Assembly (NCBI RefSeq): GCF_002261185.1
Contig: NZ_NEVQ01000001.1
Span: forward strand, 186,001-250,000
Direction: 5' to 3'
DNA: 64,000 bases
Source: Bordetella genomosp. 4
GTDB taxonomy: Bacteria > Pseudomonadota > Gammaproteobacteria > Burkholderiales > Burkholderiaceae_B
The notes under the pieces were generated by a model, which was not told the DNA's origin, searched no databases, and saw nothing but the letters and a program-made list of their open reading frames with translations. Position numbers and translations under genes: made by a program. This document shows, piece after piece, positions 1-62,043 of the stretch. The first letter of the stretch is position 1; every line of letters begins with the position of its first letter.

Positions 1-1681
1 GCGCCTCGCGCAGGTCGTGTTCGCTGTTCAGGCGCAGTGCGACGAGGCCGTGTTCGGATTTGTGCGGCAACTGCGCCGAGCAGGCTTTTAATGCGACCGG
101 CCCATTTATCGTGCGCCAGGCCGCCACGGCGGTGTCTGCATCGGTGCAGCAGTGGTAGTCGGCCACGGTCAAGCCGTAATCCGACAACAGTGCGAGACTT
201 TGAGATTCAGAAAGAAAGCGTGAAGGCGATGACAATCCATCGAGCGAACCCGGGGCGCCCGATGCGGCGTCATGGTGTGGCGCAGTGTCGCGCGTTTGCC
301 ATTGGTGCAGGCGATACAAACTCGCCATGGCATTGGCCGCCTGTTGTTCATCGGCATAGACCGCGACACCGCGTGCACGAAACGTGGCGGCCACGTTTTC
401 TTGCCAGGCGACGACGGCGACGGGTTTGCCAGAGGCGGCGGCAAACGCTGCCGTGTCCGCCGCAAACGTCTCAACGTCATAGCCACGTCCCGCGACCGGA
501 ATATCGATCAGAAACATATCGGCGGCGGGGTCGTCAGCGATGATGGGCAGGACCTGTCCGAACAGCCCATTGTTCGACAGCAGTGCCGCCGTGATGTCGA
601 TCGGGTTGGTCGTGGTCGCATAACCGGGCAGGCGATCGGTCAAAGCCTGCTGAGTACGATCGGCCAGCGGCGTAATCTGCAGGCCGTATTCGACAGCGGC
701 ATCCGATGCCAGCACGCAGCTCGCACCGGAATTGCTGACGGCGACGACTCGCGGGCCCCGAGGTAATGGACCGCGCAATGACAGCTCCGCCCAGCGCACC
801 AATTCATGCGGATCGCGCGCGCGCAAGATACCGTGATGTTCGAAGTACGCATCCACCACGCGGTCTTCGCTCGCCATCGCCCCCGTGTGCGACGCCGCCG
901 CGCGTGCTCCGGCCTCGGAACGGCCGGATTTGACAGCGATCAATGGGACGCCACGTTCACGTGCGAGTGCGGCAGCCCGCGCCAGGACGTCGGCGTCCTG
1001 CAGCGACTCCAGATACAGCAACACCATACGTACCTGCGGATCGCGCAACACAGCGCAGGCCAGCTCCGATACGGTGACATCGGCCTCATTGCCGGTGGCA
1101 TGCATGTGACGTACACCGACACCGCGTTGGCGCAACAACCCATATATCATCGCGCTCATTCCACCACTTTGGCTGATGACAGCGACCGGCCCATCGGCTG
1201 GTTCGACCTCCAGGAACATGGTCGAAAAGCAGGCGATCGCACCATTGCCAAAATTGGCGAGGCCTTGCGAGTTAGGACCCACGATGCGCATGCCCGCCGC
1301 GCGGGCGCGTGCGGTCATGGCATCCTGCAAGGCTTTCCCTGAGCTGCCCGTTTCAGAAAAGCCCGCCGAGATCACGATGGCTGTGGATACCCCAAGCTCC
1401 GCGCATTTATCCACAGCTTGCACGGCTTGTTCACCGGCGACTGCCACGATGGCCAGATCGGGCGTCGCGGGCAGTGCATCCAGACTAGGCCAGGCGCGTT
1501 CGCCTTGCACCTCGGCGCGTTGCGGATTGATGGGATATATCGTGCCCGCATAGCCGTGCCGGCGCATATAAAAAATGGGCCGCCCGCCGATTTTGTCGGG
1601 ATTATCCGAGGCGCCCACGATGGCAATGGATGCCGGTTCGAGCAAGGTTTTCAGGTCGTCATGGCGAGAATTAAAGCCCAT
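1..1681 (-). CDS. ADP-forming acyl-CoA synthetase (acetate-CoA ligase family), C-terminus cut by window edge
   Basis: The reading frame is open from an ATG at 1681 to the left edge: 560 codons and no stop, checked codon by codon over most of the length. The family is normally about 700 residues, so roughly the last 140 lie outside. The N-terminus carries a CoA-binding Rossmann domain (SIAIVGASDNPDKIGGRP, then YPINP). Near the edge the ATP-grasp domain begins, with LPHKSEHGLVALRL. Such enzymes interconvert acyl-CoA and ADP with acid and ATP, or activate carboxylic acids. It is the last visible gene of a minus-strand group with an IclR regulator, a thiolase-like protein, a DUF35 protein and a Bug receptor, which suggests activation of a carboxylic acid taken up by that receptor. 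The substrate cannot be told from sequence. Confidence 0.85.
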   Translation of the reverse strand, partial: MGFNSRHDDLKTLLEPASIAIVGASDNPDKIGGRPIFYMRRHGYAGTIYPINPQRAEVQGERAWPSLDALPATPDLAIVAVAGEQAVQAVDKCAELGVSTAIVISAGFSETGSSGKALQDAMTARARAAGMRIVGPNSQGLANFGNGAIACFSTMFLEVEPADGPVAVISQSGGMSAMIYGLLRQRGVGVRHMHATGNEADVTVSELACAVLRDPQVRMVLLYLESLQDADVLARAAALARERGVPLIAVKSGRSEAGARAAASHTGAMASEDRVVDAYFEHHGILRARDPHELVRWAELSLRGPLPRGPRVVAVSNSGASCVLASDAAVEYGLQITPLADRTQQALTDRLPGYATTTNPIDITAALLSNNGLFGQVLPIIADDPAADMFLIDIPVAGRGYDVETFAADTAAFAAASGKPVAVVAWQENVAATFRARGVAVYADEQQAANAMASLYRLHQWQTRDTAPHHDAASGAPGSLDGLSSPSRFLSESQSLALLSDYGLTVADYHCCTDADTAVAAWRTINGPVALKACSAQLPHKSEHGLVALRLNSEHDLREA

Positions 1682-1706
1682 GGAGATTCCTATGCTGTGA
1701 TGGTAT

Positions 1707-2687
1707 TCAGTTGACAGTGGCGCCCGACGTCTTGACCACGTCTGCCCATTTCTTGATTTCGTTGTCGACGAACTGTTGATAATCCCCGGGACTCATCCAT
1801 TGCGCGTCAAATCCTTGTTGGGCAAATTGCTGCTGTAGCGCCTTGTCTGCCAGGACCTTTTGCAACGTGGCGCTGAGCTTTTGTACGACCGCATCGGGAG
1901 TTCCTGCGGGGGCCATGAGGCCGTTCCACGCGGTCGCCTCATAACCGGGCAAGCCGGACTCCGCGACAGTAGGGATCTCTGGCGCCGCAGGCGATCGCGC
2001 CGCACTGGTCACCGCGAATGCTTGCAGCTTGCCGTCGCGCACATAGGGCATCGATGACAGCATGGTGTTGAACATGACATCGGTTTGACCACCCATCACA
2101 TCCGTCATGGCGGGCGCGCTGCCTCGGTATGGGACATGCACCATGCGCGTTCCCGCCATGGCGTTGAACAGCTCCGCTGCCAAGTGCGTCGATTGCCCGT
2201 TTCCAGACGAGGCAAAGGTCAATTTGCCCGGTTTGGATTTCGCCAGCGCGATCAGCTCACGTACGTTGTGCGCGGGCAGATCGGGGCGCGCCACGATGAC
2301 CAGCGGACCTTGTGTCAGCAGTGACAAGGGAATGAAGCTCTTGCTGGTGTCGTAGCTCAGGGTTTTGAATAGCGACATGTTGATGGCATGGGCCGTCGTG
2401 GCCAACAGCAGCGTATAACCATCGGGGGCGCTTCTGGCGACGAGTTCCGCGCCTATGTTGCCGCCTGCGCCTGAGCGGTTGTCGATGATGACGGTTTGCT
2501 TGAGTTCATCGCCCAGACCTTTCGCCACGGACCGCGCCACGATATCCGTGGGGCCACCGGGGGGATAGGGCACCACCAAGGTAATCGGTTTGGCCGGCCA
2601 GTCGGTATCGGCGGCATGGACAGAGATCGTCGCGGTGAATAGCGTCAACGCGGCGAATGCGCCACGCCATAGCGTTTTAATAGGCAT
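1707..2687 (-). CDS. Bug-family periplasmic substrate-binding receptor
   Basis: A 326-residue protein with a cleavable signal peptide (MPIKTLWRGAFAALTLFTA, cleavage near VHA-AD). It has the hallmarks of the Bug/TctC receptors: WPAKPITLVVPYPPGGPTD at the mature N-terminus, GAGGNIGAE, and VPYRG around residue 200. These receptors bind carboxylates in the periplasm. Some work with the TctAB membrane proteins and many are orphans. No tctA or tctB is nearby, so this is an orphan within the acyl-CoA cluster, 25 bases upstream of the acyl-CoA ligase. It probably captures the cluster's carboxylate substrate or serves a shared permease; that part is inference. The family assignment is firm, the ligand is unknown. 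Confidence 0.9.
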   Translation of the reverse strand: MPIKTLWRGAFAALTLFTATISVHAADTDWPAKPITLVVPYPPGGPTDIVARSVAKGLGDELKQTVIIDNRSGAGGNIGAELVARSAPDGYTLLLATTAHAINMSLFKTLSYDTSKSFIPLSLLTQGPLVIVARPDLPAHNVRELIALAKSKPGKLTFASSGNGQSTHLAAELFNAMAGTRMVHVPYRGSAPAMTDVMGGQTDVMFNTMLSSMPYVRDGKLQAFAVTSAARSPAAPEIPTVAESGLPGYEATAWNGLMAPAGTPDAVVQKLSATLQKVLADKALQQQFAQQGFDAQWMSPGDYQQFVDNEIKKWADVVKTSGATVN

Positions 2688-2763
2688 GAGTGTCTCCTCC
2701 GTCCTCGCGGGACGTGTTGTGGATGCGGTTCGTTTGGATGTGATGCCGTGGATACGGCAAGCA

Positions 2764-3105
2764 TCAGGGCGGGGATCGGGCTTCGAACTTCAGTAGCAGG
2801 CGGCCGTTGATTTCTACGGCACGGCCATGCACGTGCTGGCCGACGGTGGTGGTGGCGTCTGCATGTCCCATCAGCGTGACCTGTTCATGCAATTTGACGA
2901 GCACCAGCGTATAGGGTGTCAGTGCTTTCCATTGCGCATCCGGGGCCCGATGCACCTCGCTGCGCGCAATGACGACGCCCTCGCCTGTCGCGCGCTGCCA
3001 TGACAATGCGGTGCCGCCACAGGCGGCGCAAGCATAGGGCCGTAACGCCCACCACGTGCCGCAGTGGTCGCAACGTTGGATATCCAGAGGATGCTGTGTG
3101 CTCAC
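2764..3105 (-). CDS. DUF35 OB-fold/Zn-ribbon protein, partner of the thiolase-like gene
   Basis: A small 113-residue protein. The start is taken as GTG at 3105, because that GTG overlaps the TGA of the upstream thiolase-like gene (GTGA), and residues upstream of it in the frame do not resemble the family. It has a rubredoxin-like zinc ribbon, C12-x2-C15 and C26-x2-C29, followed by an OB-fold half with GEGVVIARSEVHR and PYTLVLVKL. DUF35 proteins nearly always sit beside SCP2-type thiolases or thiolase-like aldolases and form a complex with them, the OB domain helping to bind acyl-CoA. The overlap implies translational coupling and a 1:1 complex. Confidence 0.88.
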   Translation of the reverse strand: MSTQHPLDIQRCDHCGTWWALRPYACAACGGTALSWQRATGEGVVIARSEVHRAPDAQWKALTPYTLVLVKLHEQVTLMGHADATTTVGQHVHGRAVEINGRLLLKFEARSPP

Positions 3106-4256
3106 GTTGTGCCCTCCGCTTGCAGTACCAAGCTGACATGGGCAGAGAGCACGCCACCATCGGCATGCACCAGGGCTCGCCGCCTCGGGGCGATCTGGCG
3201 TTCGCCAGCGCGGCCTGCCAGTTGAGTCCAAGCCTCGACGATATGTGCCAAGCCTCCGGCCACGCCGGAATGGCCGAACGACAGCAGTCCACCGTGCGTA
3301 TTGAGAGGCAGTGCACCAGACGATGCAAAATCTCCGCGACGCAGAGGGGCTCCCGCGCCGCCACGCGGCGCATATCCCAGCTCTTCAAGCAACATGACCA
3401 GCGTAATCGTGAAAGAGTCGTAGATCGCCAGATAATCGATGTGCCGCGACTCCAGCTTTGCCTCGGCCAAGGCTCTGGCACAAGCACGCGCGGCACCCGT
3501 GTCCAGCACGTCGCGCAACGCCGACAAATGCTGATGACGATGCGCCTGGCCATCGCCAATGACTTGAACGGGACCTTCGTCTGCGCTGAGCACCAGCGCT
3601 GCCGCTCCATCCGATATCGGGCAGCAATCCAACAGATTCAATGGTGTTGCGATCGGCTTGGACGCCAGCACTTGATCGACGGTGATAGGGTCGCGCAGAT
3701 GCGCATGAGGATGGCTTGCAGCATGCTCGCGCATCAGTACGGCGAATTCGGCCAAGGTCTCGCGATCGAGGCCGGTCTGATGCGTATAGGCCGAGGCCAG
3801 CAATGCATAGTAGGCTGGCACGGATGCGCCATTGGGGACTTCGGTATCGGGCTCGCCGACTTGGGCCAAGGTCTGGATAGACGTATCCACGGCTTGGCCG
3901 GTCAGTCGATTTTCCCCTGCGACCACCAGGATGCGCCGGCAGGTGCCTGCGCGCAGCAGTGTGCGGGCCAGCATGACCATGGCGGCCCCGGTGGCTCCGC
4001 CCATTTGCATGCCGTGCGCATAGTGGGGCTGCAAGCCCAGCTTTTCGCTCAGCAGATCGGCCAGCATCAAATGCGGAAAGGTCGTCGCATAGCCGCACAA
4101 TACGCCGTCGATATCGCCGCGTTGCAGGCCGGATTGCGCCAAGGCCTCATTCGCGGCTTGCGCCATCAGGTCCAGCGCACTGCTGCCCTCGTGGCGGCCA
4201 TATCGGGTCGTTGCGGCGGCGTGGATATAGGCGCGGGGATAGTCGATATCAGGCAT
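3102..4256 (-). CDS. Thiolase-like protein (SCP2 type) lacking the nucleophilic cysteine
   Basis: The ATG at 4256 gives 384 residues beginning MPDIDYPRAYIHAAATTRYG, like the family, and overlaps the end of the IclR gene by 8 bases. It has the SCP2-thiolase layout: GVLCGYATTF near 50-60, an oxyanion region near 85, YDSFTIT near 280, and NTHGG followed by GHSG near 340. The position that is cysteine in true thiolases (C-x-S/T-G) reads GATG at 87-90, so the nucleophile is glycine. Such proteins with DUF35 partners act as retro-aldolases in steroid side-chain loss (Ltp2 type), or serve acyl-transfer complexes. A claisen-type thiolase reaction is therefore doubtful here; aldol cleavage of a beta-hydroxyacyl-CoA is a reasonable guess. 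Confidence 0.85.
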   Translation of the reverse strand: MPDIDYPRAYIHAAATTRYGRHEGSSALDLMAQAANEALAQSGLQRGDIDGVLCGYATTFPHLMLADLLSEKLGLQPHYAHGMQMGGATGAAMVMLARTLLRAGTCRRILVVAGENRLTGQAVDTSIQTLAQVGEPDTEVPNGASVPAYYALLASAYTHQTGLDRETLAEFAVLMREHAASHPHAHLRDPITVDQVLASKPIATPLNLLDCCPISDGAAALVLSADEGPVQVIGDGQAHRHQHLSALRDVLDTGAARACARALAEAKLESRHIDYLAIYDSFTITLVMLLEELGYAPRGGAGAPLRRGDFASSGALPLNTHGGLLSFGHSGVAGGLAHIVEAWTQLAGRAGERQIAPRRRALVHADGGVLSAHVSLVLQAEGTT

Positions 4257-5019
4257 GTGGCCACCACGAGCGTTCGATGTCGCGAGCCTCTTGCGAGAGG
4301 GCCTGGGCGAGTTCTGCTTCGCGAGACTCGATGCGTTCATTCAACGCCGCGATGCTGAGCGCGGCGATCGCGCGTCCGCTGGGGCCTCGTACGGCGACAC
4401 CCAGGCCACCCATTTTTTCTACCACCACGTCCAGCAGCATGGCGTGTCCCACGCCTCGCGCACGTTGTGTTGCCGTGATCAAATCCGATTCAGGAAAGCG
4501 GGGATACTTGGCCGTCAGGCGTTGCCGCACCATGGGCATGACGGCTTCGGTTTCAACTTCGTCCAGTGTCGACAACAGAGCCAGGCTGCCTGCGCCCACG
4601 CCCAGCGGGCGTCGGCTGCCTACCTGCAGATAATTGGCTCGAATGGGGTAGTCGCCAAAGCACAGATCCAGACAAACCGATTCCCAGCCCATCGGTAGAG
4701 AGAGAATGACCGTGTCGCCAAAACGGCGTGCCAATCGGATCAGGGCTGGCCGTGCGAGCCCGCGCAGATCCAGTCCGTCCACCATCGCATGATGCATGGC
4801 ATAGACCTGGGGCCCCAGCATGTAGTGTTTGTTGACGGGATCCCGTTCGACGAAGCCTTCCGTCTCCAGGTCCTTCAGGATCCGTCGCGCCGTAGAGATA
4901 TCCAGCGCGGCACGTTGTGCGATATCGGTCAGCCGTTGGACGCAGGGGTCCGACAGGCTGGCCAGTACTCGACAAGTTTTCTGGGTCGCAGATAAGGCGT
5001 TGGCGTCTGGCGTGGACAT
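4249..5019 (-). CDS. IclR-family transcriptional regulator
   Basis: A 256-residue regulator with an N-terminal winged helix-turn-helix (about 10-75: TQKTCRVLASLSDPCVQRLTD, then STARRILKDLETEGFVERD) and a C-terminal GAF-like effector domain (from about 85). IclR proteins control catabolic operons in response to small aromatic or carboxylic effectors. Here the regulator is the first gene of the operon it most likely controls and overlaps the thiolase-like gene by 8 bases, so it would be co-transcribed with its targets. The 164-base gap to liuD on its upstream side must hold the promoter; I could not pick out a convincing operator there. Confidence 0.9.
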   Translation of the reverse strand: MSTPDANALSATQKTCRVLASLSDPCVQRLTDIAQRAALDISTARRILKDLETEGFVERDPVNKHYMLGPQVYAMHHAMVDGLDLRGLARPALIRLARRFGDTVILSLPMGWESVCLDLCFGDYPIRANYLQVGSRRPLGVGAGSLALLSTLDEVETEAVMPMVRQRLTAKYPRFPESDLITATQRARGVGHAMLLDVVVEKMGGLGVAVRGPSGRAIAALSIAALNERIESREAELAQALSQEARDIERSWWPHA

Positions 5020-5183
5020 GAATGTGGGGCAGTCCGATAGGGGAACACCGCCACAAGATAAGAACGCACGCCACGCCGGTAAAGTTGCATCGCAACAAAT
5101 TTTCGTCCAGCGACAATCGAGCTCATCCGCGCAAATCCCTCCGGGCCTCTCTCATAGAGATGGGGCCCGGACTAGCAGAGGCG

Positions 5184-7241
5184 CTACGCGACGATAGCGA
5201 CCAGCTCGGCACCCTCGCCGACCTGGTCTCCGACGGCGTAAAACACCTCTTGGACTTCGCCATCGCCCGGGGCCGAGATCGTGTGCTCCATCTTCATGGC
5301 CTCCATGACCAGCAGGGCTTGTCCTTTCTTCACTTTGTCACCCGCCTGGACGGCAATCGAAATGATCTTGCCCGGCATGGGGGCGGTCAGCCCGCCCGCA
5401 TGGTCACCCTCGCCATCCTGGGCGTGGGCCAATACATCATGCAGACCCAATATCTGGGTGCGGCCCTCGCGAAACACATACGCTTTATCACCGTGCAATA
5501 CCACCGTGCCCGTGCTTTCGCGTCCATCCAAGGTCACGCGCAGCCCATAGGCCAGGTTCGGGTTCGCCCCCGTATGCGCGCGCCAGGAAAAAGCCGACGA
5601 TGTTTGATCGTTGCGCAATGTCCAGGCCTGTCCGTCACGTGTGATCGTGACATCACGCAGGGTTTCATGATCGAGCCATTGCAGCGTTTGCTGATACTGT
5701 CCACCCAAACGCCATCCGTCGCGCACGTCCCATGGATCTGTGACTGATGCGCGCGTCGAGGGCGTCGCACCTGCCGAGCCTGGCAACGACGCACTGCTTG
5801 CGGGCGCCAAGCCCTGGCGGACCAGCACAGCCGCGGTGGCCAGCGCCACAGCGGTGGCATCTGCTGCAGCCGGCGGCGGCAGCAACGTCTCGCGCTGACG
5901 CTCGATCAAGCCCGTATCCAGATCCGCCGCAGCAAAGGCAGCATCCTGCATCAGGCGCGTCAGAAACGCCACGTTGGTCTGCACGCCCACGGCATGCGTA
6001 TGCGCCAACGCCTGAATCATGCGTGCGCGGGCCTGATCGCGGTCCGCACCGTGCACAATCAGCTTGGCGATCATCGGGTCGTAATACGGCGTGATGGTAT
6101 CGCCCATCCGCACCCCGCCATCCACCCGCACATCGCCGTTGGTAAACGCGACGTGAGGCGGCAACTCCAGATAGGCCAAGGTACCGATCGACGGCAAAAA
6201 GCCTTTATCGGGATTCTCTGCGTAAATGCGTGCTTCGATGGCATGGCCCTGAATGTGCAGGTCCTCTTGTCTGGCGGGCAGTGGTTGGCCCGCCGCAACA
6301 CGCAGCTGCCACTCTACGAGATCGTGCCCGGTGATCATTTCCGTGACCGGGTGCTCGACTTGCAGACGCGTATTCATTTCCATGAAATAAAAACGTCCGT
6401 CTGGCTCGGCGATGAATTCCACCGTCCCTGCACCCACGTAACCGACTGCGCGCGCGGCCGCGACAGCAGCCTCGCCCATGGCTTGCCGGCGCTCTGCGGT
6501 CATGCCGGGGGCTGGGGCTTCTTCGATGACTTTTTGATGGCGGCGTTGTACCGAGCAATCACGCTCGAACAAATACACGCAGTTGCCATGCGTATCGGCA
6601 AAGACCTGGATTTCGATGTGCCGCGGCTTTTGCAGATAGCGTTCGATCAGCACGCGGTCATCGCCAAAACTCGATGCCGCCTCGCGCTGGCAGGACGCCA
6701 GCGCCTCGATAAAGGCACCGGAGGACTCAACGACGCGCATCCCTTTACCGCCACCGCCCGCGCTGGCCTTGATCAACACGGGATAGCCGATGGCATCGGC
6801 TTGCGATTTCAGAAACGCAGGATCCTGGTTATCGCCGTGATAGCCGGGCACCAGCGGCACCCCTGCTTTTTCCATCAAGGCCTTGGCGGCCGACTTGCTG
6901 CCCATGGCGGCGATGGCCGACGCAGGCGGCCCGACAAAGGCAATACCTGCATCCGTCGCGGCCTGAGCAAACGCCTCGTTCTCCGACAAGAACCCATAGC
7001 CCGGGTGAATGGCCTGCGCACCCGTATCGCGCGCCGCCTGCAAAATGGCCTCTGCCCGCAAATAGCTCGCACGCGGCTCCGGTCCCCCAATATGCACCGC
7101 GACATCGCAAGCCGCCACATGCCGCGCGCCTGCGTCAGCGTCGGAATACACCGCCACCGTCCGTATGCCCAGACGGCGCGCCGTCGCCGCGACACGGCAA
7201 GCAATCTCACCACGGTTAGCTATCAGCAGAGTATCGAACAT
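5184..7241 (-). CDS. liuD: Methylcrotonyl-CoA carboxylase, biotin-carboxylase/carrier (alpha) subunit
   Basis: The ATG at 7241 (685 residues, MFDTLLIANRGEIACRV) is preferred over the in-frame GTG four codons earlier, because GGAAGA lies five bases upstream of it. Domains in order: biotin carboxylase N-domain (1-110), ATP-grasp (115-330, with GGGGKGMR and EMNTRLQVEHPVTE), C-domain (to about 445), linker, and a biotinyl domain with AMKME, where Lys650 is the biotinylation site. The domain order alone does not tell methylcrotonyl- from propionyl- or geranyl-CoA carboxylase. The neighbouring liuB with a methylcrotonyl-type signature and liuA support leucine breakdown: ATP-dependent carboxylation of 3-methylcrotonyl-CoA in the cytoplasm. 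A hairpin-rich repeat separates it from liuB. Confidence 0.88.
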   Translation of the reverse strand: MFDTLLIANRGEIACRVAATARRLGIRTVAVYSDADAGARHVAACDVAVHIGGPEPRASYLRAEAILQAARDTGAQAIHPGYGFLSENEAFAQAATDAGIAFVGPPASAIAAMGSKSAAKALMEKAGVPLVPGYHGDNQDPAFLKSQADAIGYPVLIKASAGGGGKGMRVVESSGAFIEALASCQREAASSFGDDRVLIERYLQKPRHIEIQVFADTHGNCVYLFERDCSVQRRHQKVIEEAPAPGMTAERRQAMGEAAVAAARAVGYVGAGTVEFIAEPDGRFYFMEMNTRLQVEHPVTEMITGHDLVEWQLRVAAGQPLPARQEDLHIQGHAIEARIYAENPDKGFLPSIGTLAYLELPPHVAFTNGDVRVDGGVRMGDTITPYYDPMIAKLIVHGADRDQARARMIQALAHTHAVGVQTNVAFLTRLMQDAAFAAADLDTGLIERQRETLLPPPAAADATAVALATAAVLVRQGLAPASSASLPGSAGATPSTRASVTDPWDVRDGWRLGGQYQQTLQWLDHETLRDVTITRDGQAWTLRNDQTSSAFSWRAHTGANPNLAYGLRVTLDGRESTGTVVLHGDKAYVFREGRTQILGLHDVLAHAQDGEGDHAGGLTAPMPGKIISIAVQAGDKVKKGQALLVMEAMKMEHTISAPGDGEVQEVFYAVGDQVGEGAELVAIVA

Positions 7242-7434: not shown

Positions 7435-9042
7435 CTACATCCGGAATACACCAAAGCGCGTGTCTTCGATCGGTGCATTCAATGCCGCCGAGAGCGCCAG
7501 GCCCAGCACACGGCGGGTATCTGCCGGTGCAATGATGCCGTCGTCCCACAACCGCGCGGTAGCGTAATAAGGATGCCCTTCGCGTTCGTACTGATCACGA
7601 ATCGGTGCCTTGAAGGCTTCTTCGTCTTCTGCCGACCAATGCCCGCCTTTGGCCTGAATCCCATCGCGTCGTACCGTAGCCAGCACGCTTGCGGCCTGTT
7701 CGCCACCCATGACCGAAATGCGCGCGTTGGGCCACATGAACAACATGCGTGGCGAATACGCGCGTCCGCACATTCCATAGTTGCCCGCGCCAAACGAACC
7801 GCCGATCAACACCGTGAATTTAGGCACATTGGCCGTCGCAACGGCGGTGACCATCTTGGCGCCATGCCGCGCAATCCCTTCGTTCTCGTACTTACGGCCC
7901 ACCATGAATCCAGTGATGTTCTGCAAAAACACCAGCGGGATTTTGCGTTGCGCGCAAAGTTCGATAAAGTGCGCGCCCTTTTGCGCCGACTCTGAAAACA
8001 GGATGCCATTGTTGGCCACGATGCCTACCGGCATGCCATGAATATGCGCAAAGCCCGTCACCAAGGTCGTGCCGAAACGCGCCTTGAATTCGTCAAAATC
8101 CGAGCCGTCCACAATGCGCGCGATGATTTCCCGCACGTCATAGGGTTTGCGGGTATCGGAGGGGATGATGCCGTTGAGCTCCGCCGGGTCGTAGCGCGGC
8201 TCGCGTACGGGGGTCAGTGCCAGAGGCGTGGGTTTTTGACGGTTGAGCCGTGACACCGCGTCGCGCGCGAGTTGAAGGGCATGCAGATCGTTGACGGCCA
8301 GGTGATCAACAACGCCGGATAACCGTGTATGCACATCGCCGCCGCCGAGATCTTCGGCGCTGACTTCTTCACCGGTCGCTGCTTTGACCAGCGGCGGGCC
8401 GCCCAGAAAAATCGTGCCTTGATTACGCACAATGATGGATTCATCGCTCATTGCCGGTACATAAGCGCCGCCCGCTGTGCAGGAACCCATCACGACTGCA
8501 ATCTGCGCGATGCCTTGCGATGACATCACGGCCTGGTTGTAGAAAATGCGGCCGAAGTGATCGCGATCGGGGAACACCTCGTCCTGGCGCGGTAAATTCG
8601 CGCCGCCCGAATCCACCAGGTACACACAAGGCAGATGATTCTGCGCGGCGATTTCTTGTGCGCGCAGATGTTTCTTGACGGTCATGGGATAGTACGTTCC
8701 ACCCTTTACCGTCGCGTCATTGCAGACGATGATGCACTCCGTACCGGCGATGCGGCCGATGCCTGTGATGACACCGGCTCCCGGTGCCTCGCCGTCGTAC
8801 ATACCGTGCGCCGCCAACGGCGACAGCTCCAGAAAGGCGCTGCCCGGGTCGATCAATCGCTCGACGCGTTCACGTGGCAGGAGCTTGCCGCGCGCCACAT
8901 GTTTTGCGCGCGCGGCTTCGTTGCCGCCCAGCGCGGTCTGGGCCAATTGCCGGGCCAGGTCGTCCAGCAGCGCCTGCATGGCGCGTGCGTTGTCGGCGTA
9001 GTCTTGTGAACGCGGATTGATGCGAGATTCGATAGTGGGCAT
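7435..9042 (-). CDS. liuB: Methylcrotonyl-CoA carboxylase, carboxyltransferase (beta) subunit
   Basis: Start chosen at ATG 9042 (535 residues, [20 protein letters not shown]), the usual beginning of the family; an in-frame GTG 12 codons upstream (9078) has no ribosome site either. The protein is a crotonase-fold carboxyltransferase with two halves. [19 protein letters not shown] and [18 protein letters not shown] near residues 400-440 are typical of methylcrotonyl-CoA carboxylase beta subunits rather than PccB. With LiuD it transfers the carboxyl group from biotin to 3-methylcrotonyl-CoA to give 3-methylglutaconyl-CoA. The next enzyme, methylglutaconyl-CoA hydratase (LiuC), usually encoded between liuB and liuD, is not in this window. 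Confidence 0.93.
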
Positions 9043-9264
9043 AGCGGGCCGTTGTCGTGCAAAGAGATCGACAGGCACTGCGGATGCAGGCCGTTTTGTT
9101 TATCGGAGGCTCTGGAACTTTCGACGTTTAGTGCATAGAGCCGTCAACCTGCGTAAAGGCCGATGCCTCAACGCCTGGATACCTGATCGAAATGCAGTGG
9201 TCTTGCTTATGGTGGGTCGCGGTGTGTCAGATCACATGCGCGATCCGACACACGCACAGACTCG

Positions 9265-10446
9265 TTAAATCATTTCGATGGCCATGGCCACGGCTTCGCC
9301 GCCGCCAATGCACAGCGTGGCGACGCCGCGCTTGCCGCCGGTCTTGCGCAGGGCCCCGATCAGCGTGGTGACCAGACGGGCGCCCGATGCGCCGATAGGA
9401 TGGCCCAGCGCCGTTGCGCCACCGTGCACGTTGACTTTGTCGTGAGGCAGTTTGAAGTCGTTCATGGCAGCCATGGTGACGACGGCAAAGGCCTCGTTGA
9501 TTTCATACAGATCAACGTCCTCGGCTTTCCAACCGGTTTTGGTGAACAGGTTTTTCAGTGCACCGACGGGCGCGGTCGTGAACCAGTTCGGTTCTTGCGA
9601 ATGCTGGCTGTGCGCCACGATACGAGCCAGCGGCTTGAGGCCGAGTTCTTCGGCAGTCGAGGCACGCATGAGCACCATGGCAGCCGCACCATCGGAAATC
9701 GACGACGAGTTGGCCGCGGTGACGGTGCCGTCCTTTTTGAATGCGGGTTTCAGCGTCGGGATTTTCTCCGGCATGGCTTTGGTCGGCGCCTCGTCGGTGT
9801 CGATCACGGTATCGCCTTTGCGGCCAGCGACGGTGACGGGGGCGATTTCCCATTTAAAGCTGCCGTCTTCGGTCGCGGCACGGGCACGGCGCAGCGACTC
9901 CAGCGAAAACGCGTCTTGCTGTTCGCGCGTGAAGCTGTATTTCGCCGCGCAGTCTTCGGCAAAGACGCCCATGGCCTTGCCGCGATCGTAGGCGTCCTCC
10001 AGGCCGTCCAAGGCCATGTGGTCATACACCGTGCTGTGGCCATAGCGATAGCCTTGGCGGCCCTTGAGCATCAGATACGGGGCATTGCTCATGCTTTCCT
10101 GACCGCCCGCGACGACGATGCGCGCCGAGCCGGCGTTCAACAGGTCATGGCCGAACATGGCGGCCTTCAGGCCTGAACCGCAAACTTTGTGAATGGTCGT
10201 GCACGCAACACCCAGCGGCAGCCCGGCACCCAGCGCGGCTTGACGCGCGGGGGCTTGGCCCTGGCCGGCCTGCAACACATTGCCCATGATGACTTCGTCG
10301 ACCTGGTCCGGTTTGATACCGGCGCGTTCAACGGCGGCTTTGATGGCGACAGAGCCGAGTTCGTGGGCGGCCAGGCCTGACAGGCTGCCCAGCATGCCGC
10401 CCATGGGGGTGCGGGCAACAGAAACGATAACGACGGGATCAGACAT
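9265..10446 (-). CDS. Acetyl-CoA C-acetyltransferase (biosynthetic-type thiolase)
   Basis: A 393-residue thiolase, full length for the family. The acyl-accepting nucleophile is Cys89 in KVCGSGLK. The conserved NEAFAVV, GGATALGHPIGASGAR and the C-terminal CIGGGEAVA (second catalytic Cys) are all present. It condenses two acetyl-CoA or cleaves acetoacetyl-CoA. In the leucine pathway the end products are acetoacetate and acetyl-CoA, so a thiolase fits after acetoacetate activation. It starts 37 bases after aceK and ends 222 bases before liuB, so the operon may carry an internal promoter there. Compare the unrelated cysteine-less thiolase-like gene at 3.1 kb. Confidence 0.92.
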   Translation of the reverse strand: MSDPVVIVSVARTPMGGMLGSLSGLAAHELGSVAIKAAVERAGIKPDQVDEVIMGNVLQAGQGQAPARQAALGAGLPLGVACTTIHKVCGSGLKAAMFGHDLLNAGSARIVVAGGQESMSNAPYLMLKGRQGYRYGHSTVYDHMALDGLEDAYDRGKAMGVFAEDCAAKYSFTREQQDAFSLESLRRARAATEDGSFKWEIAPVTVAGRKGDTVIDTDEAPTKAMPEKIPTLKPAFKKDGTVTAANSSSISDGAAAMVLMRASTAEELGLKPLARIVAHSQHSQEPNWFTTAPVGALKNLFTKTGWKAEDVDLYEINEAFAVVTMAAMNDFKLPHDKVNVHGGATALGHPIGASGARLVTTLIGALRKTGGKRGVATLCIGGGEAVAMAIEMI

Positions 10447-56131: not shown

Positions 56132-57517
56132 TCAGGATCCGCCATCCTGGGCCGCCAGGATGCGTGCCAGCTCGGCTATGGTGCGTTTGCGGCGTTCGTC
56201 GTCCTCGTGGCCTTTGTTCAATGCGGACCATTCGGGGCGGCTGCGGGCCTCTTTCAGGGCGTCGGGAAGTCGGCCCGAGCGCCATGCCTTGTCGGCCGGC
56301 CGATCCAGATGGACGGGATCGCGTGCGGCATGTCCGCGACGTTCCAACGCGTTGATCAGTTGACGTTGCCGCATTGCTAATAGGCGTAGTACTGCATCGT
56401 CGACGGTGATTTCGCGATAGCCGCGCAGTTTGCCCATCAGCCGTCCGCCAAAACGTTCGACGCCCTGCCAGAGTCCCCCCGCGGCAGCGCCGATCAGCAT
56501 GCCGGTACCCAGGCTCAGGCCCGCGCTGAGCATATCGACGGCCGCGCCGGCCATGGCGCCCGCGGCCATGCCGGTACCTAGCTGGATTCCCATGTCTTTC
56601 AGGGCCTGGGGGTGAAATAGATCCATGCCCCAGCGGGTGTCGGTCAACGGCAGGCCGTCCTCGGCATAGTCGCTGCGGTGAAAGTTGTATAGCGCGAGCA
56701 AGGCATCGACGCAGGCCTGTTCGCGGCGCCGGACCTGTTCGCGCAACGTCGCAGCGTGTGTTTGCAGGGCCTCGTCATCGGGCGGGCTCGCAACCCGTAG
56801 CGCGGCCACGTCTATCAGCAGGTCCGCGGCCAACTGCCAGGCGGCTTGGCTGCGTTCGGTGCGCTGGAGCACCATCGCGTCTGACAGGCGATGCAATATT
56901 GAGGCATGCCGGTCCAGCAAGACTGCCAATTTGGCATACAACTGACGTTCGCCATCGAGAGGCGGCGCCACCGTGTCGAACTCCAGCGCGGCATGCAAAC
57001 CCAGACGCGACATCGCATCGCGCCATTCATCGGCACGGTGGGCGGGAGCATTGACGAAGTTCAACACCGGCAACAGAGGCCGGCCGCACGCTGCCAGCAA
57101 GGCTAACTCGTCCCGATGTTTGCTCAGCACAGGATCGCGTGCGTCGATCACGTACAGGGCCGCATCGCAGTCCAGCATTTTGGTCAGCACGCGGGCTTCC
57201 TGTTCGTAGCGCCGGTGTGCTTCGGGCGAATCCAGAAAACGGCGAATACGTGCGGGACCATCGCGACGCGTATCCGGGTTGTCGAGCCTTTCGAGGTACT
57301 CCAGCAAGGCGATGCTGTCTTCCATGCCTGGCGTATCAAACCATTCCAGCACAGGTTTGCCATCCAGTTTCAGGCGTGCGCCTTCTACGTGGCGGGTGGT
57401 GCCAGGACTATCTGCGACTTCGCCGAATTCGCTATTGCGCGTCAGCGTGCGCAACAATGACGTCTTGCCAGTATTAGTGTGTCCAACAACGGCGATCTTC
57501 AGCATCGGATCACTCAT
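56132..57517 (-). CDS. DUF3482-domain GTPase
   Basis: ATG at 57517 overlaps the end of the DUF2868 gene by 8 bases and gives 461 residues. The N-terminal domain is a TrmE/Era-like GTPase: P-loop GHTNTGKT (12-19), Thr40/Thr41 in switch I, and DTPG (61-64). The G4 motif is atypical, LNFVN (152-156) in place of NKxD, so nucleotide choice may differ. The C-terminal DUF3482 part has a strikingly Gly/Ala-rich segment (310-348, with GTGMAAGAMAGAAVDML and LGTGMLIGAAAGGLW) like a membrane-inserting glycine zipper. Function unknown. It is the third gene of a coupled operon with YkvA and DUF2868 proteins. Confidence 0.82.
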   Translation of the reverse strand: MSDPMLKIAVVGHTNTGKTSLLRTLTRNSEFGEVADSPGTTRHVEGARLKLDGKPVLEWFDTPGMEDSIALLEYLERLDNPDTRRDGPARIRRFLDSPEAHRRYEQEARVLTKMLDCDAALYVIDARDPVLSKHRDELALLAACGRPLLPVLNFVNAPAHRADEWRDAMSRLGLHAALEFDTVAPPLDGERQLYAKLAVLLDRHASILHRLSDAMVLQRTERSQAAWQLAADLLIDVAALRVASPPDDEALQTHAATLREQVRRREQACVDALLALYNFHRSDYAEDGLPLTDTRWGMDLFHPQALKDMGIQLGTGMAAGAMAGAAVDMLSAGLSLGTGMLIGAAAGGLWQGVERFGGRLMGKLRGYREITVDDAVLRLLAMRQRQLINALERRGHAARDPVHLDRPADKAWRSGRLPDALKEARSRPEWSALNKGHEDDERRKRTIAELARILAAQDGGS

Positions 57518-58955
57518 TGCCAGTCTCCAGCCAGCGTAGCGGGCGATCGGCATTTTGCACAATGGCGTCCGGCGCCATGCCGGTCGCCATGAGGCGTTCA
57601 CGCCATGTTTGCAGGCGGTTTGATGAAGAGGAATGTGCCTCGTGTGTGTACAGCCACACACGCGTTTGGCCAGTCTTGTCCGTCAGCGAAGCGATCAGCC
57701 CCAGCGTCCCGCGATCAGGCGTCTGGCGGGCGTCGCACGCGATCAGCAGACGCGGGGTATGGCTCTGAGCCAATGCATCCTGCAAACGATTGCGTTGCTC
57801 GCGTGAATCCAGATTGCCCGCGTCGACCACGCCGCCGGGGACATCCTCGGGCGGCCAGGGCAGATCGGTGGGCAGTTCCAAGCCGACTAACAGAGGCTGG
57901 GTGCCCAATGAATCCAGCGCGTCTGATTCGATGGAGCGTCCAGCGCCAATCTGGGGTTGATGCAAGGGATCGACCGGACGGTCAATGCCGCTGGACTGTA
58001 CGGTCGGCAGCAGGCGGTCGCGCAATGTGGCGTAGCCGGGCAATGTCGGATCGATATGCAGACGCTGTTTTGCATGGATTGTTTGGGCCAGGCACAGCAA
58101 CCATGCAATGAGTCGGGGCAGCAAGCCATACACCACGATCACGCCGATGAGCCAGACCGACCATTGGGCCTGTGCCGCGGCAGGCAGCGTCTGGCTGTTG
58201 TCGCTGGCGCGCACGATGTCGTCGGCCGGGATGGCGAATCCCAGCTGTGCAGGCAGCCAGCCCAGCGCGCGCGTCAGAAAAACGAAGGTCTCCGGCTGTA
58301 GTAGCGTAGTCGCCCAGACAAAGCGATAGCTGGCGGTAGAAAGCATCACCAGCAAGGTGATCAGCGCTGCGCCCAGCCCTGCCAGCCACAGGGTATGGCT
58401 GATCGTGCCGAATAGACTGCGCAAGGCCCCTGCCCGCGCCAGTAGATTCATCAACGCTTGCGGCACGAGGGCCGCATCTGGGCCTCGTGCAAATTTGCGG
58501 GTCGCCCAGAGCCACAGACGTCCCAGGCCTGTGGCCTGGCTGGGGCGCAGTAGAAATGACGCCAGCCAAAGCAAAAAGGTCAACGCATGCAGACCGAGCA
58601 GCGTGCCGACCGCCCACAGGACATTAACGGGGCGCGTTCCATCGCCTAATGTGCCCGCTGCTGAACCGATCCCGGCCAGGACAGCGATCAACAACAATAG
58701 CAGCAGGCTGATGACTGCGCCCTGACGCCAGCGCCCTATCAGTGCGTCCAGACCCTCACGGCGGCCGAGCCATTGTGCGCGCAGCAAGACGCGGTCTTGC
58801 AGAACGTCGGGTCCATTGCGCGCGTGGCGTACGGCGTCGGCGTCTTCGAGAGGCCCCCAGTGTTCTTCGCGCAGGCGTATCGCTTCGGCCAACCAGTGCG
58901 CTTGCCACGGCGGGGTGTTTTCCAAAGCCGTCGTAGGGGCGGCAGGGGGTACCAT
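57510..58955 (-). CDS. DUF2868 membrane protein
   Basis: ATG at 58955 gives 481 residues. A cytoplasmic helical start (WLAEAIRLREEHWGPLEDAD) is followed by four likely membrane helices: VISLLLLLLIAVLAGIGSAA, VGTLLGLHALTFLLWLASFL, LWLAGLGAALITLLVMLSTA and VWLIGVIVVYGLLPRLIAWL. A soluble C-terminal domain of about 170 residues follows (LVGLELPTDLPWPPEDVPGG; RLLIACDARQTPDRGTLGLI). The start codon shares a base with the YkvA stop (TGATG), and its end overlaps the GTPase gene. The family has no known function; the fixed pairing with a DUF3482 GTPase suggests a membrane-bound GTPase complex. Confidence 0.8.
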   Translation of the reverse strand: MVPPAAPTTALENTPPWQAHWLAEAIRLREEHWGPLEDADAVRHARNGPDVLQDRVLLRAQWLGRREGLDALIGRWRQGAVISLLLLLLIAVLAGIGSAAGTLGDGTRPVNVLWAVGTLLGLHALTFLLWLASFLLRPSQATGLGRLWLWATRKFARGPDAALVPQALMNLLARAGALRSLFGTISHTLWLAGLGAALITLLVMLSTASYRFVWATTLLQPETFVFLTRALGWLPAQLGFAIPADDIVRASDNSQTLPAAAQAQWSVWLIGVIVVYGLLPRLIAWLLCLAQTIHAKQRLHIDPTLPGYATLRDRLLPTVQSSGIDRPVDPLHQPQIGAGRSIESDALDSLGTQPLLVGLELPTDLPWPPEDVPGGVVDAGNLDSREQRNRLQDALAQSHTPRLLIACDARQTPDRGTLGLIASLTDKTGQTRVWLYTHEAHSSSSNRLQTWRERLMATGMAPDAIVQNADRPLRWLETGNE

Positions 58956-59332
58956 CAACGAGCGGGGGGCGCGTCGGTCTTGTCAGAGGCGCCAAACCAG
59001 TTCTGCAGCTTGACGCTGGCCTGTTGTTTGACGTCGTCATTGATGTAGAACGCCACCGTCGCCAGTGCCGCGGTCATGACGCTCAGGTCATCGGTGTAGC
59101 CCACCAGCGGCGCCAGGTCCGGAATGGCGTCTAAGGGCAACACGAAATAGCCTAATGCGCCGTAGATGACGCGACGCGCCCATTTGGGCGTATCGGGACT
59201 TTTCACGGCGTAATACAGCCATAGTGCTTTTTCCAGTGCCTGTCGACCCGCGGCCGACGCATGGCGTGTCGCCTTGCGCCAGAAGCGCTGGTCGGAATAG
59301 GCCTTTTCGTAGGTAGGGTTCGCAGTCGACAT
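58955..59332 (-). CDS. YkvA family (DUF1232) protein
   Basis: ATG at 59332 gives 125 residues; earlier codons of the open frame are not protein-like. The DUF1232 core is WARRVIYGALGYFVLPLDAI followed by PDLAPLVGYTDDLSVMTAAL (about 55-94). That is a hydrophobic hairpin with the family's PxDxIPDxxPxxGYxDD pattern. It is followed by a short polar end. Related proteins are small membrane-associated factors without a defined role. It is the first gene of the coupled YkvA-DUF2868-DUF3482 operon. Confidence 0.87.
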   Translation of the reverse strand: MSTANPTYEKAYSDQRFWRKATRHASAAGRQALEKALWLYYAVKSPDTPKWARRVIYGALGYFVLPLDAIPDLAPLVGYTDDLSVMTAALATVAFYINDDVKQQASVKLQNWFGASDKTDAPPAR

Positions 59333-59668
59333 GGTGCGTTGGGCGTCAGCCCAATGGTGATCAGGTAACAACCCATTGTAGACCGCCCCGCTGACGTCTT
59401 TGTTCGAGTCTGTTGACGGCGTTGTGCGGGACGACCCGTTTACAACATTGCGTAGCGCTGGCAGAAGCATCGCTGATTGCAACGTTGTTGCGTATAAATA
59501 ACGATCGTTACGTTTAATTTGACAGTTACGTTGCTTGTTGTTTCTCGGAACGTTAAATTTGCCGTTAATAACTCATTTTGTGAAAATAGAAATATTTTGT
59601 TTCGTTTGTTCCACCTATAGCAGGGCTGCCGCGACTGTACGGGTCCACGGGCTTTGCAGAGAGACATC
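59333..59668. other. AT-rich regulatory region before the fimbrial operon
   Basis: 336 bases with no gene. From about 59460 to 59620 it is much richer in A+T than the surroundings, which often marks silenced, foreign-type or tightly regulated promoters. It contains TTGACA (59519-59524) without a well-placed -10. GTTACGTT occurs twice, 18 bases apart (59507 and 59525). A diverged direct repeat, ACGTTTAATTTG (59510) and ACGTTAAATTTG (59550), has a 40-base period. No homopolymer tract of the kind that drives fimbrial phase variation was seen. Confidence 0.6.
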
Positions 59669-60217
59669 ATGATGCTGAAAAAATTGCTCGTCGCGTCCTT
59701 CGTAGTCGCCGCTTTCAGTCAGTCCCCCGTCCAAGCCGCAGGCACTCTGGTAGGCCAAGTGGGAGTACAAATGGTCATTGGGGCCGGCTGTACCATCATC
59801 AACGGCTCCGTTGCTGGCGGCATCAATCAATGGGGTACCTTGGATTTCGGCACGTATGCCGATTTAACCAACGTGGTGGATGCTCAAGCGGTGGGAACGT
59901 CGGGCAATATCCAGATCCAATGCAGTACTGGATTGACTCCGGTGTTGCAGGTTAACGCGGGTTTGCATGCCTCAGGCGGTCAGCGCTACATGCAGAACAG
60001 CACTACGACCTCGAGCACGATAGCCTATAACCTGTATTCGGATGCCGCGCGTTCCGCATTGATCCAGGCCAACACGCCCGTGGACATATCCTCGGTGTCA
60101 ACGGGCACTGCGGTCAATATTCCGCTCTATGGCCGTGTGGTGCCTACCGGGCAGGCAACGCCGACGCCTGCAGCTGGCACCTATATCGATACGCTGTTGG
60201 TGACGCTCGCCTGGTGA
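59669..60217 (+). CDS. Spore coat U domain protein (Csu-type pilin subunit)
   Basis: The ATG at 59669 (AGAGAG upstream) gives 182 residues. A signal peptide (MLKKLLVASFVVAAFSQSPV, cleavage QA-AG) is followed by the SCPU domain: AGCTIINGSVAGGINQWGTL, DFGTYADL, IQIQCSTGLTPVLQVNAG, RYMQNS, IAYNLYSD, IPLYGRV and the terminal AGTYIDTLLVTLAW. Two Cys form the conserved disulfide. The beta-rich terminal strand is the donor for chaperone-usher assembly. First of three such genes and likely the major shaft subunit (CsuA/B-like). Confidence 0.92.
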   Translation: MMLKKLLVASFVVAAFSQSPVQAAGTLVGQVGVQMVIGAGCTIINGSVAGGINQWGTLDFGTYADLTNVVDAQAVGTSGNIQIQCSTGLTPVLQVNAGLHASGGQRYMQNSTTTSSTIAYNLYSDAARSALIQANTPVDISSVSTGTAVNIPLYGRVVPTGQATPTPAAGTYIDTLLVTLAW

Positions 60218-60223
60218 TAGCGG

Positions 60224-60724
60224 GTGCGTGATGCGCGCGGCGTGCTGTTGATGGCGGCACTGGGTGGAGCTCTGTTTGGGGCAGCACACGCCCAGGCCCC
60301 TACGGCGACCATCGGTTTACGCGCCATGATTGCGCCGGCCTGCGCTGCGGGCAGTCTGGATTACGGCGTGCTGGACTTTGGGTCACACGGCTCGTTGAGC
60401 AATCAAGTCGAGACAAGCAGCAGTGTCGGTGGAGGGACCATTCAAGTCACTTGCGTCAATGGCTTGAGCTATTCGATTCGCCTGGATGGCGGGTTGTATG
60501 GCAATGGGACACAACGTTATATGCGAAGCGCTGCAGGTGCCGCGATCTCGTATCAGTTGTTCGGTGATGCGCAGTTCAATGTGCCATGGAACGTCGGTAT
60601 CGCGCTGAATCAAACAGGCACCGGTTCGCTGCAGCAAATCCCGCTGTATGGCCGGGTGCCTGCGCAGACAACACCGGCGGCCGGAACCTATAGCGACATC
60701 GTGCGCGTGACGGTGGAGTGGTAA
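60224..60724 (+). CDS. Spore coat U domain protein (Csu-type minor subunit)
   Basis: GTG start at 60224, six bases after the previous stop; 166 residues. Signal peptide GVLLMAALGGALFGAAHA-QA. SCPU landmarks: APACAAGSLDYGVLDFGSHG, IQVTCVNGLSYSIRLDGG, RYMRSAAGAAISYQLF, IPLYGRVPAQTTPAAGTYSD, VRVTVEW. It is clearly homologous to its two neighbours but diverged, so the duplication is old. It is secreted to the periplasm and assembled through the chaperone and usher encoded downstream. Confidence 0.9.
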   Translation: MRDARGVLLMAALGGALFGAAHAQAPTATIGLRAMIAPACAAGSLDYGVLDFGSHGSLSNQVETSSSVGGGTIQVTCVNGLSYSIRLDGGLYGNGTQRYMRSAAGAAISYQLFGDAQFNVPWNVGIALNQTGTGSLQQIPLYGRVPAQTTPAAGTYSDIVRVTVEW

Positions 60725-60727
60725 ATC

Positions 60728-61246
60728 GTGCGGACCTGGCTATGGTTGCTGGCATTGGTTGCGGCGCAAAGTGTTGCCGATCCCTCGCCTATCAGTCGTT
60801 CGTTTCAAGTACAGGCGTTCGTCGTGAACGGCTGCGTCTTTGGATCGAGCGGCAACTCGGTGAGCGATTTGGGCACGATCGATTTCGGCACCGTGACGAA
60901 TCTTTCGCTTGGACAATCCGCGTCGAGTACCGCGGGTAATGGTTCCATTGTGCTGACGTGCACGCCCGGCATGAGTCTGAATGTCGGTTTGGGCAGTGGC
61001 CTGAACAGCGTCAGTACGAGCGAGCGTTATCTCAAACACGTCAGCGGTACGGAGTTGCTGGCTTATCAGCTCTATCGGGATGCTGCGCATATGACTGTCT
61101 GGGGGACCGGGGCGCAGGCATTGTCGATTGCCAATTTTTCGGTCGCGACGCAGACCTACGTCGTTTATGCGCGATTACTGCCTCGCACTGGTCTGCCGTC
61201 GGCGGGCGAGTATCGCGATACGGTGGTGGTCGAGTTGCTTTATTGA
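60728..61246 (+). CDS. Spore coat U domain protein (Csu-type minor subunit)
   Basis: GTG start at 60728, three bases after the previous stop; 172 residues. Signal peptide RTWLWLLALVAAQSVA-DP. SCPU features: VNGCVFGSSGNSVSDLGTID, FGTVTNLS, GSIVLTCTPGMSLNVGLGSG, RYLKHVSGTELLAYQLYRD, YVVYARLLP, AGEYRDTVVVELLY. The IPLYGRV block of the other two is changed to YVVYARL. Probably a minor or adaptor subunit; the order subunit-subunit-subunit-chaperone-usher equals csuA/B-A-B-C-D. Confidence 0.9.
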   Translation: MRTWLWLLALVAAQSVADPSPISRSFQVQAFVVNGCVFGSSGNSVSDLGTIDFGTVTNLSLGQSASSTAGNGSIVLTCTPGMSLNVGLGSGLNSVSTSERYLKHVSGTELLAYQLYRDAAHMTVWGTGAQALSIANFSVATQTYVVYARLLPRTGLPSAGEYRDTVVVELLY

Positions 61247-61272
61247 AGGCGCCGACTTGCAGGGAGTACGGG

Positions 61273-62043
61273 ATGGCTGGGTGGTTTAGAAAGTTGTTGT
61301 GGATCGGTTGCCTGGCGCTGTCGGCGGTGAGCGTCGCACGTGCTGCCAGCGCAGTCCTGATCTGGCCGATCAATCCTGTGTTGGAATCGGACCAGTCGGC
61401 AACGGCCCTATGGCTGGAAAATCGCGGTAAACAACCGGTGACGCTGCAAGTGCGTGTGTTGGCCTGGGCTCAGGCCAACTACGAGGAAGACTATGCCGCA
61501 CAGAAGGAGATCGTGGCCAGTCCGCCCTTTGCACAGATCGAGCCAGGCAAGCGGCAATTGGTGCGCTTGATTCGCCAAGGCCCCCAGCCTACACGCGCCG
61601 AGGATGCCTATCGGATCGTGATCGACGAGGTACCTGCTGCTGCAGCTCAGGCGCAACCTCAGGGCCTGGGCGTGCAGTTTCAGATGCGTTATTCGCTGCC
61701 TTTTTTTGTGACTGCCCCTGGCATCTGGACTCAGCCGCGCAACGATGTAGAGCGTGATCCTGCCACCGCAACACAGCCGAAGCTGAACTGGCAATTGACT
61801 ACCGTGCAAGGCGCGCGTTATCTCGAGGTTCAGAACACAGGTACGGTGCATGCGCGGTTGAGTAGAGTGCGTTGGACGGGCGATGGCACAGAGGCCGTGC
61901 TCAACAACGGGTTGCTGGGGTATGTGCTGGCCGGTCAGCGTATGCGTTGGAAATTGCCGCCTAATGTGATGCCCAGACCGGGAATGCGATTGTCGGTACA
62001 GTTGGCAGACAACACGTCGCCTATTGAAGTTCCGGCACGCTGA
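61273..62043 (+). CDS. Periplasmic fimbrial chaperone (Csu type)
   Basis: ATG at 61273 with AGGGAG upstream gives 256 residues; the longer frame overlaps the third subunit gene and is not real. A signal peptide (LLWIGCLALSAVSVARA-AS) is followed by the PapD-like two-domain immunoglobulin fold. The G1 and subunit-binding region includes TALWLENRGKQPVTLQVRVL, EIVASPPFAQIEPGKRQLVR, GVQFQMRYSLPFFV and the C-terminal LRLSVQLADNTSPIE-like beta strands. It holds subunits by donor-strand complementation until the usher takes them. Confidence 0.93.
   Translation: MAGWFRKLLWIGCLALSAVSVARAASAVLIWPINPVLESDQSATALWLENRGKQPVTLQVRVLAWAQANYEEDYAAQKEIVASPPFAQIEPGKRQLVRLIRQGPQPTRAEDAYRIVIDEVPAAAAQAQPQGLGVQFQMRYSLPFFVTAPGIWTQPRNDVERDPATATQPKLNWQLTTVQGARYLEVQNTGTVHARLSRVRWTGDGTEAVLNNGLLGYVLAGQRMRWKLPPNVMPRPGMRLSVQLADNTSPIEVPAR

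Follow-up and report, generated by a model that had tools for sequence, protein, structure and literature searches.

Introduction

The locus described here raises the question of what a DUF2868 protein and a DUF3482 GTPase do together, since most of the genomes sampled from the window's family carry the pair, although neither of its two domains has an assigned function. The window is the whole 64,000-nucleotide stretch of Bordetella DNA that was analysed, and all positions refer to it. In an earlier note on this DNA, the genes were taken as a system without a functional description. In agreement with that, the parts of the literature retrieved under the names DUF2868 and DUF3482, other gene names lying outside the search, described no function for either domain; the mentions found there were a list of Pseudomonas aeruginosa hypothetical proteins, a Thiodictyon differential-expression table with a DUF2868 protein, and a use as a taxonomic marker.

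Organisation of the locus

Three genes lie on the minus strand at 59332-56132, in the order of a ykvA-like gene (DUF1232; 58955..59332; 125 aa), a DUF2868 gene (57510..58955; 481 aa), and a gene for a GTPase carrying MMR_HSR1 and DUF3482 (56132..57517; 461 aa). The TGA stop codon of the ykvA-like gene (58957-58955) has one base in common with the ATG of the DUF2868 gene (58955), and the GTPase ATG (57517) lies ahead of the DUF2868 stop codon (57512-57510), which gives an 8-base overlap. These ORF coordinates confirmed the 1-base and 8-base overlaps given in the earlier note. All Pfam matches exceeded their cut-offs: PF06803 in the ykvA-like product (1.3e-13), PF11067 in the DUF2868 protein (1.2e-89; 301.4 bits against a cut-off of 26.8), and MMR_HSR1 (4.4e-15) and PF11981 (1.6e-100; 336.7 bits against 29.2) in the GTPase. 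Near relatives of the ykvA-like gene had the same start residues when a script took the starts nearest to that of the window.

The flanks of the locus are of other kinds, with genes for a peptide-binding protein and a permease (SBP_bac_5, BPD_transp_1) on one side and spore-coat-U and PapD-chaperone genes on the opposite side. A promoter scan near the operon gave one weak site, which did not exceed the shuffled controls. Each of the 7 upstream stretches that were aligned, two being identical, had a GTCTACAAT box 40-50 bases ahead of ykvA; its GTCTACAATGGG form occurred once in the window, against 0.01 expected.

DUF2868 and the DUF3482 GTPase form a two-gene unit

Among 398 Pseudomonadota genomes, 36 had DUF3482 above its cut-off, and these were exactly the 36 with DUF2868 above its own, at adjacent coordinates, which bears out the earlier statement that the DUF2868 and GTPase genes are coupled. 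Neither domain was found in 14 control genomes. Weak DUF3482 matches, all below the cut-off and mostly on the glycine zipper of the GTPase described below, were left out (G279, G373, G041, G119, G020, and second places in G054 and G130), as were G275 and G291 in this phylum draw and G498 in the family draw, where DUF2868 fell below its cut-off. In a draw of 145 genomes from the order of G070, which was searched with DUF2868 only, this domain exceeded the cut-off in 40 genomes (11 also in the phylum draw, 19 checked for the GTPase, and 10 left out). The GTPase adjoined DUF2868 on the same strand at all 20 loci examined, i.e. those of the 19 new genomes and of G158, already counted in the phylum draw. 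Of the 151 genomes from the window's family, 128 had DUF3482 and 126 had DUF2868 above its cut-off; the two further DUF3482 genomes were G401, whose GTPase gene is located at the end of a contig, and G498, in which DUF2868 is just below the cut-off. All nine genomes of the window's genus had DUF3482, and the pair was also found in Pseudomonas and Neisseria.

Both genes were recovered in 79 of 80 named relatives, always on the same strand (79/79). They overlapped in 68 of the 79, by 8 bases in 35, a figure that depends on the choice of start; nine relatives had gaps of 3 to 147 bases, and two had approximately 5 kb between the genes. Since the strand was the same in 79/79 and the genes overlapped in 68 relatives, the arrangement is no product of chance. 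Tight coupling is not essential, because approximately 5 kb of other genes separates DUF2868 from the GTPase in two Bordetella ansorpii records. By reading, the insert in Bordetella ansorpii L179 holds an AraC-type regulator, an Fnr-type regulator, a HemF-like enzyme, a desaturase, and an OmpW-like protein. Around the pair, no neighbour gene common to most lineages was seen, gene calls in these high-GC loci being rough. The neighbours looked ordinary by reading, e.g. folA-like and plsC-like genes, and gave no clue to what the pair does. The core unit thus consists of two genes, DUF2868 and the DUF3482 GTPase, and not of three.

A natural fusion of the DUF2868 membrane part to the helical and zipper parts of the GTPase was found in G225, where a single 720-aa open frame exceeded both Pfam cut-offs (PF11067, 2.3e-13; PF11981, 5.8e-12). 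Residues 13-385 of this protein correspond to DUF2868, residues 450-518 resemble GTPase residues 194-262 weakly (12.9 bits), and residues 561-611 match the zipper; the G1-G4 stretch had no match in the fusion, and no second location of either domain was listed for this genome. A larger frame on the opposite strand overlaps the fusion, and the homology belongs to the fusion frame. The fusion is evidence that DUF2868 and the GTPase may form one machine, and it suggests that the membrane part and the zipper part would be the minimum unit; as the only example seen, the fusion may also be a gene in decay.

The GTPase has a conserved but atypical G domain

The G1 region with the P-loop GHTNTGKTSL (residues 12-21; 57455..57484, minus strand) and the G3 motif DTPG (residues 61-64; 57326..57337, minus strand) were present. 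Across 75 de-duplicated GTPase sequences, H13, N15, G17, K18, T41, DTPG 61-64, N153, W165, and D181 were invariant, so that the G1, G2, and G3 motifs of Era/MnmE-type GTPases (K18, T41, and D61-G64) are all retained. At G4, the window has NFVN (residues 153-156; 57050..57061, minus strand) in place of the NKxD of this type: Asn153 was kept in 75/75, Lys154 was seen in 0/75, and the guanine-reading Asp156 was lost in 74/75, with Asp in one sequence and Glu in another. The intact P-loop and DTPG and the atypical G4 noted earlier are present and mostly conserved.

A glycine-zipper hairpin follows at residues 305-347 (56477..56605, minus strand), with G320, G324, D328, G333, G343, and G347 in 75/75 sequences. 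This segment had been described as glycine-zipper-like and possibly able to insert into the membrane; the zipper is present and conserved, whereas its alignment-averaged mean hydropathy, which peaks at 1.57, is borderline for insertion.

The DUF2868 protein is a predicted membrane anchor with a candidate pseudo-G domain

Alignment-averaged hydropathy gave four membrane segments in the DUF2868 protein, at residues 84-98 (58662..58706), 117-130 (58566..58607), 189-203 (58347..58391), and 273-284 (58104..58139), all on the minus strand. The four-helix membrane protein with a soluble C-terminal domain proposed from the window alone was thus recovered, the four segments being mostly conserved. The K/R counts of the successive loops over the alignment (12.2, 0.7, 6.4, 3.4, and 19.4) fit a predicted topology with both termini in the cytosol, and the C-terminal domain (residues 345-481; 57513..57923, minus strand), in which PDRG and W451 are invariant, would therefore be on the side of the GTPase.

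When this cytosolic domain was compared with the G domain of the partner by hhalign, the two aligned around the beta-4 strand and a W-L-GL helix, labels taken from GTPases in general. A shallow alignment gave an E-value of 5e-4 over 32 columns, deeper ones gave 1e-5 and 5.2e-6 over 75-76 columns, and a third alignment gave 9e-4 over 26 columns and 4.7e-4 over 78 columns, each value coming from one pairwise comparison. The register was constant wherever these alignments overlapped, and the span varied from 26 to 78 columns. The match scored 39.1, whereas 120 column shuffles gave no more than 26.4; a deeper profile scored 39.0 against 19.5 at most in 100 further shuffles, and the reversed profile scored 12.5. 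Twenty other gene clusters, which are neighbouring ORFs and some of them perhaps spurious, reached 16.8, and the twenty-first, at 22.6, was DUF2868 of another clade. Swapping the query and template gave a score of 32.8 (E 1.2e-4), and shuffles of 12-column blocks (n = 60) reached 36.9, indicating that short stretches carry a large share of the score. A general GTPase profile matched the DUF2868 domain near the same strand with E 0.059 (shallower profile) and 0.0042 (deeper profile), and PDB searches with the DUF2868 domain profiles gave no GTPase match. Taken from profile comparisons of this kind, the cytosolic domain of DUF2868 is, by a small margin, more likely than not a degenerate GTPase (pseudoGTPase).

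Proposed machine

We propose, as a serious but still tentative reading, that DUF2868 and the DUF3482 GTPase may constitute one GTP-driven inner-membrane machine with a role in the envelope, in which DUF2868 would be the anchor, with its four membrane helices and a cytosolic domain resembling an eroded version of the G domain in its partner. The soluble GTPase would dock on DUF2868, possibly with its G domain against the pseudo-G domain. The nucleotide cycle would then shift the C-terminal helical region and the glycine-zipper hairpin of the GTPase, and the hairpin might pack against, or enter, the membrane part of DUF2868. The likely job would be inner-membrane or envelope homeostasis, in the niche of YcjX-YcjF, for which the sampled pair-bearing genomes without YcjX (see below) serve as a pointer. 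The data show the pairing, the gene overlap, the predicted topology, the motifs, and the fusion; the docking, the conformational change, and the physiological role, including the stress or membrane-remodelling role suggested in the earlier note, are inferred. A bolder version holds that DUF2868 is a membrane pseudoGTPase duplicated from its partner, that the two form a lopsided G pair in which the DUF3482 cycle drives the zipper into the inner membrane, and that the pair replaces YcjXF in bacteria without the latter. Judged from the sequences at hand, this version is unlikely to be right as a whole. Since G4 is broken, the nucleotide cycle under this duplication reading would perhaps not be guanine-specific.

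Alternative readings

The pair could act as a gated transporter in the manner of FeoB, in which the DUF2868 helices would be a pore or carrier that the GTPase gates without inserting into the membrane. A separate G domain with a multi-helix partner fits this arrangement, transport genes lie near the pair in the window and in Neisseria, and the G domain has a weak FeoB_N similarity, below the cut-off (3.9e-5; 23.7 bits against 27). In the available text of one study, K+-activated GTPases are marked by two Asn residues, one in GxxNxGK and one five residues past the Lys (PMC3466195). The first of these, in the P-loop, was found in 75/75 GTPase sequences, but the second position held Asn in 0/75 (Arg in 70, Ala in 4, and Ser in 1). 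Besides, the membrane segments number only four, and a neighbour gene shared by most lineages, as noted above, was not seen. We regard a FeoB-like transporter as improbable.

The earlier note had suggested that YkvA, DUF2868, and the DUF3482 GTPase are one dedicated three-gene machine. The 1-base overlap in the window speaks for it, and YkvA-type genes occurred in 78 of the 151 family genomes and lay just upstream of DUF2868 on the same strand in 54, a number that refers to the 126 genomes with DUF2868 above the cut-off and was counted by reading coordinate lists. However, none of the 35 pair genomes that the phylum draw contained from outside the window's family had YkvA next to the pair, 25 of these genomes having a DUF1232 gene elsewhere, and no YkvA was found at any of the 13 Achromobacter loci searched. 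Of the proposed machine, the pairing of DUF2868 with the GTPase therefore stood, and YkvA as a general part was ruled out by the contrast between the 54 family genomes and 0/35; within the window's family, probably Alcaligenaceae going by its named relatives, YkvA would serve as an optional helper. A dedicated three-gene system is quite improbable and as a general rule largely refuted; a local three-part complex within the family is possible.

That the protein acts on the ribosome or in translation, as an Era/Der-type GTPase that happens to sit at the membrane, is very unlikely. In the PDB, the G domain matched Der and MnmE best, and these also ranked high in NCBIfam, below the cut-offs; against this, no RNA-binding domain was found in the GTPase by Pfam, the membrane partner is constant, and G4 is broken in nearly all sequences.

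Least credible is a dynamin-like or LeoA-like defence system acting on phage infection, to which a weak PADLOC match of the G domain to LeoA (6.6e-8) points, but against which stand core-type inheritance (128/151 family genomes), ordinary neighbours, a single relative with a 70-residue match in a viral_contigs scan, GTPase relatives in three plasmid records, two of them chromosome-sized, and one phage record with a candidate DUF2868 relative, plasmids having been searched with the GTPase only and phages with DUF2868 only. A mainly mobile or defence-island system was rejected on the presence in most family genomes and on the few relatives in plasmids (searched with the GTPase) and phages (searched with DUF2868).

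Comparison with known systems

The G domain shares G1 GxxNxGK[ST], the G2 Thr, and G3 DTPG with GTPases of the Era/Der/MnmE type (profile match E 2.2e-24 over 168 columns), and differs from them in lacking the G4 NKxD, in the DUF3482 helical and glycine-zipper region that then follows, and in having a membrane partner. FeoB likewise has a membrane-linked G domain with a P-loop Asn; in the pair, the membrane partner is separate and short, the FeoB transport domain was not found, and FeoB_N stayed below its cut-off. With LeoA, a bacterial dynamin-like protein, the pair has a weak G-domain similarity, whereas its partner is an integral membrane protein and there is little sign of mobility.

YcjX-YcjF of Escherichia coli (DUF463 and DUF697) likewise consists of a GTP-binding protein and an inner-membrane protein encoded by overlapping genes with domains of unknown function, with the gene order reversed, the GTPase coming first in E. 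coli. Structures of YcjX have been solved (6nz4-6nz6). Homology between the two systems was rejected: hhalign aligned YcjX and DUF3482 at the P-loop only (28 columns), there was no convincing match between YcjF and DUF2868, and Pfam gave no DUF463 or DUF697 match in the window pair.

YcjX was present in 162 of the 398 genomes and in 0 of the 36 pair genomes (hypergeometric 2e-9), and in 26 of the 145 order-draw genomes and 0 of the 40 with DUF2868 (8e-5), genomes being treated as independent in both cases; the two draws have genomes in common, the overlap having been counted by reading lists. When counted by family, YcjX and the pair met in one family per draw (f14 and f25), and the chance of at most one common family was approximately 0.06 in each draw if 37 and 46 families are assumed in total. 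Mutual exclusion by family, confounded as it is by phylogeny, is only suggestive.

The pspA operon of Yersinia enterocolitica is reported to contain ycjXF (PMC3467454), and both ycjX and ycjF are reported to go up on phiX174 infection of E. coli (PMC8125068). In the available text of PMC9239133, ycjX-like genes often sit with psp genes and the physiological link of YcjXF to this envelope-stress system is given as unknown; it is to a counterpart of E. coli YcjXF that the pair points. With constant pairing, the fusion, a possible pseudoGTPase anchor, and the absence from the sampled YcjX genomes, the two orphan domains become a single machine that can be tested, perhaps a functional counterpart of YcjXF and not a homologue.

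Fusion and separation of DUF2868 and DUF3482

The two proteins of the pair, which are encoded by separate genes in the window, were found as a single-chain DUF2868-DUF3482 fusion in locus L065 of genome G225 (7603-9765, minus strand), and this fusion was without a recognisable G1-G4 region. In the two loci from Bordetella ansorpii (L179 and L180), other genes occupying ca. 5 kb lie between the DUF2868 gene and its GTPase gene (about 990-6000). Judging from the coordinates, the spacing in another sampled genome, G471, is similar.

The pair also appeared in records labelled as phage or plasmid. Both genes are present in the unverified record of Pseudomonas phage Y10 (L303, OQ572411.1), representing either host DNA or a phage-borne copy. 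A Neisseria gonorrhoeae record (L304, NZ_CP119142.1) is labelled as a plasmid, yet its size of 2.17 Mb is that of a chromosome, and the pair in it adjoins ordinary chromosomal genes such as nusA.

Upstream region of ykvA and other genes

A GTCTACAATGGG box is located 40-50 bases 5' of ykvA (59372-59383, minus strand), and its first nine bases were found in all seven aligned stretches upstream of ykvA. This box may be the -10 region of a promoter. The spore-coat-U and PapD-chaperone genes at 59654-62043 of the window probably belong to a chaperone-usher cluster. The genome of the window carries a second DUF1232 gene away from ykvA, at 232647-232754 of contig C16 (G000).
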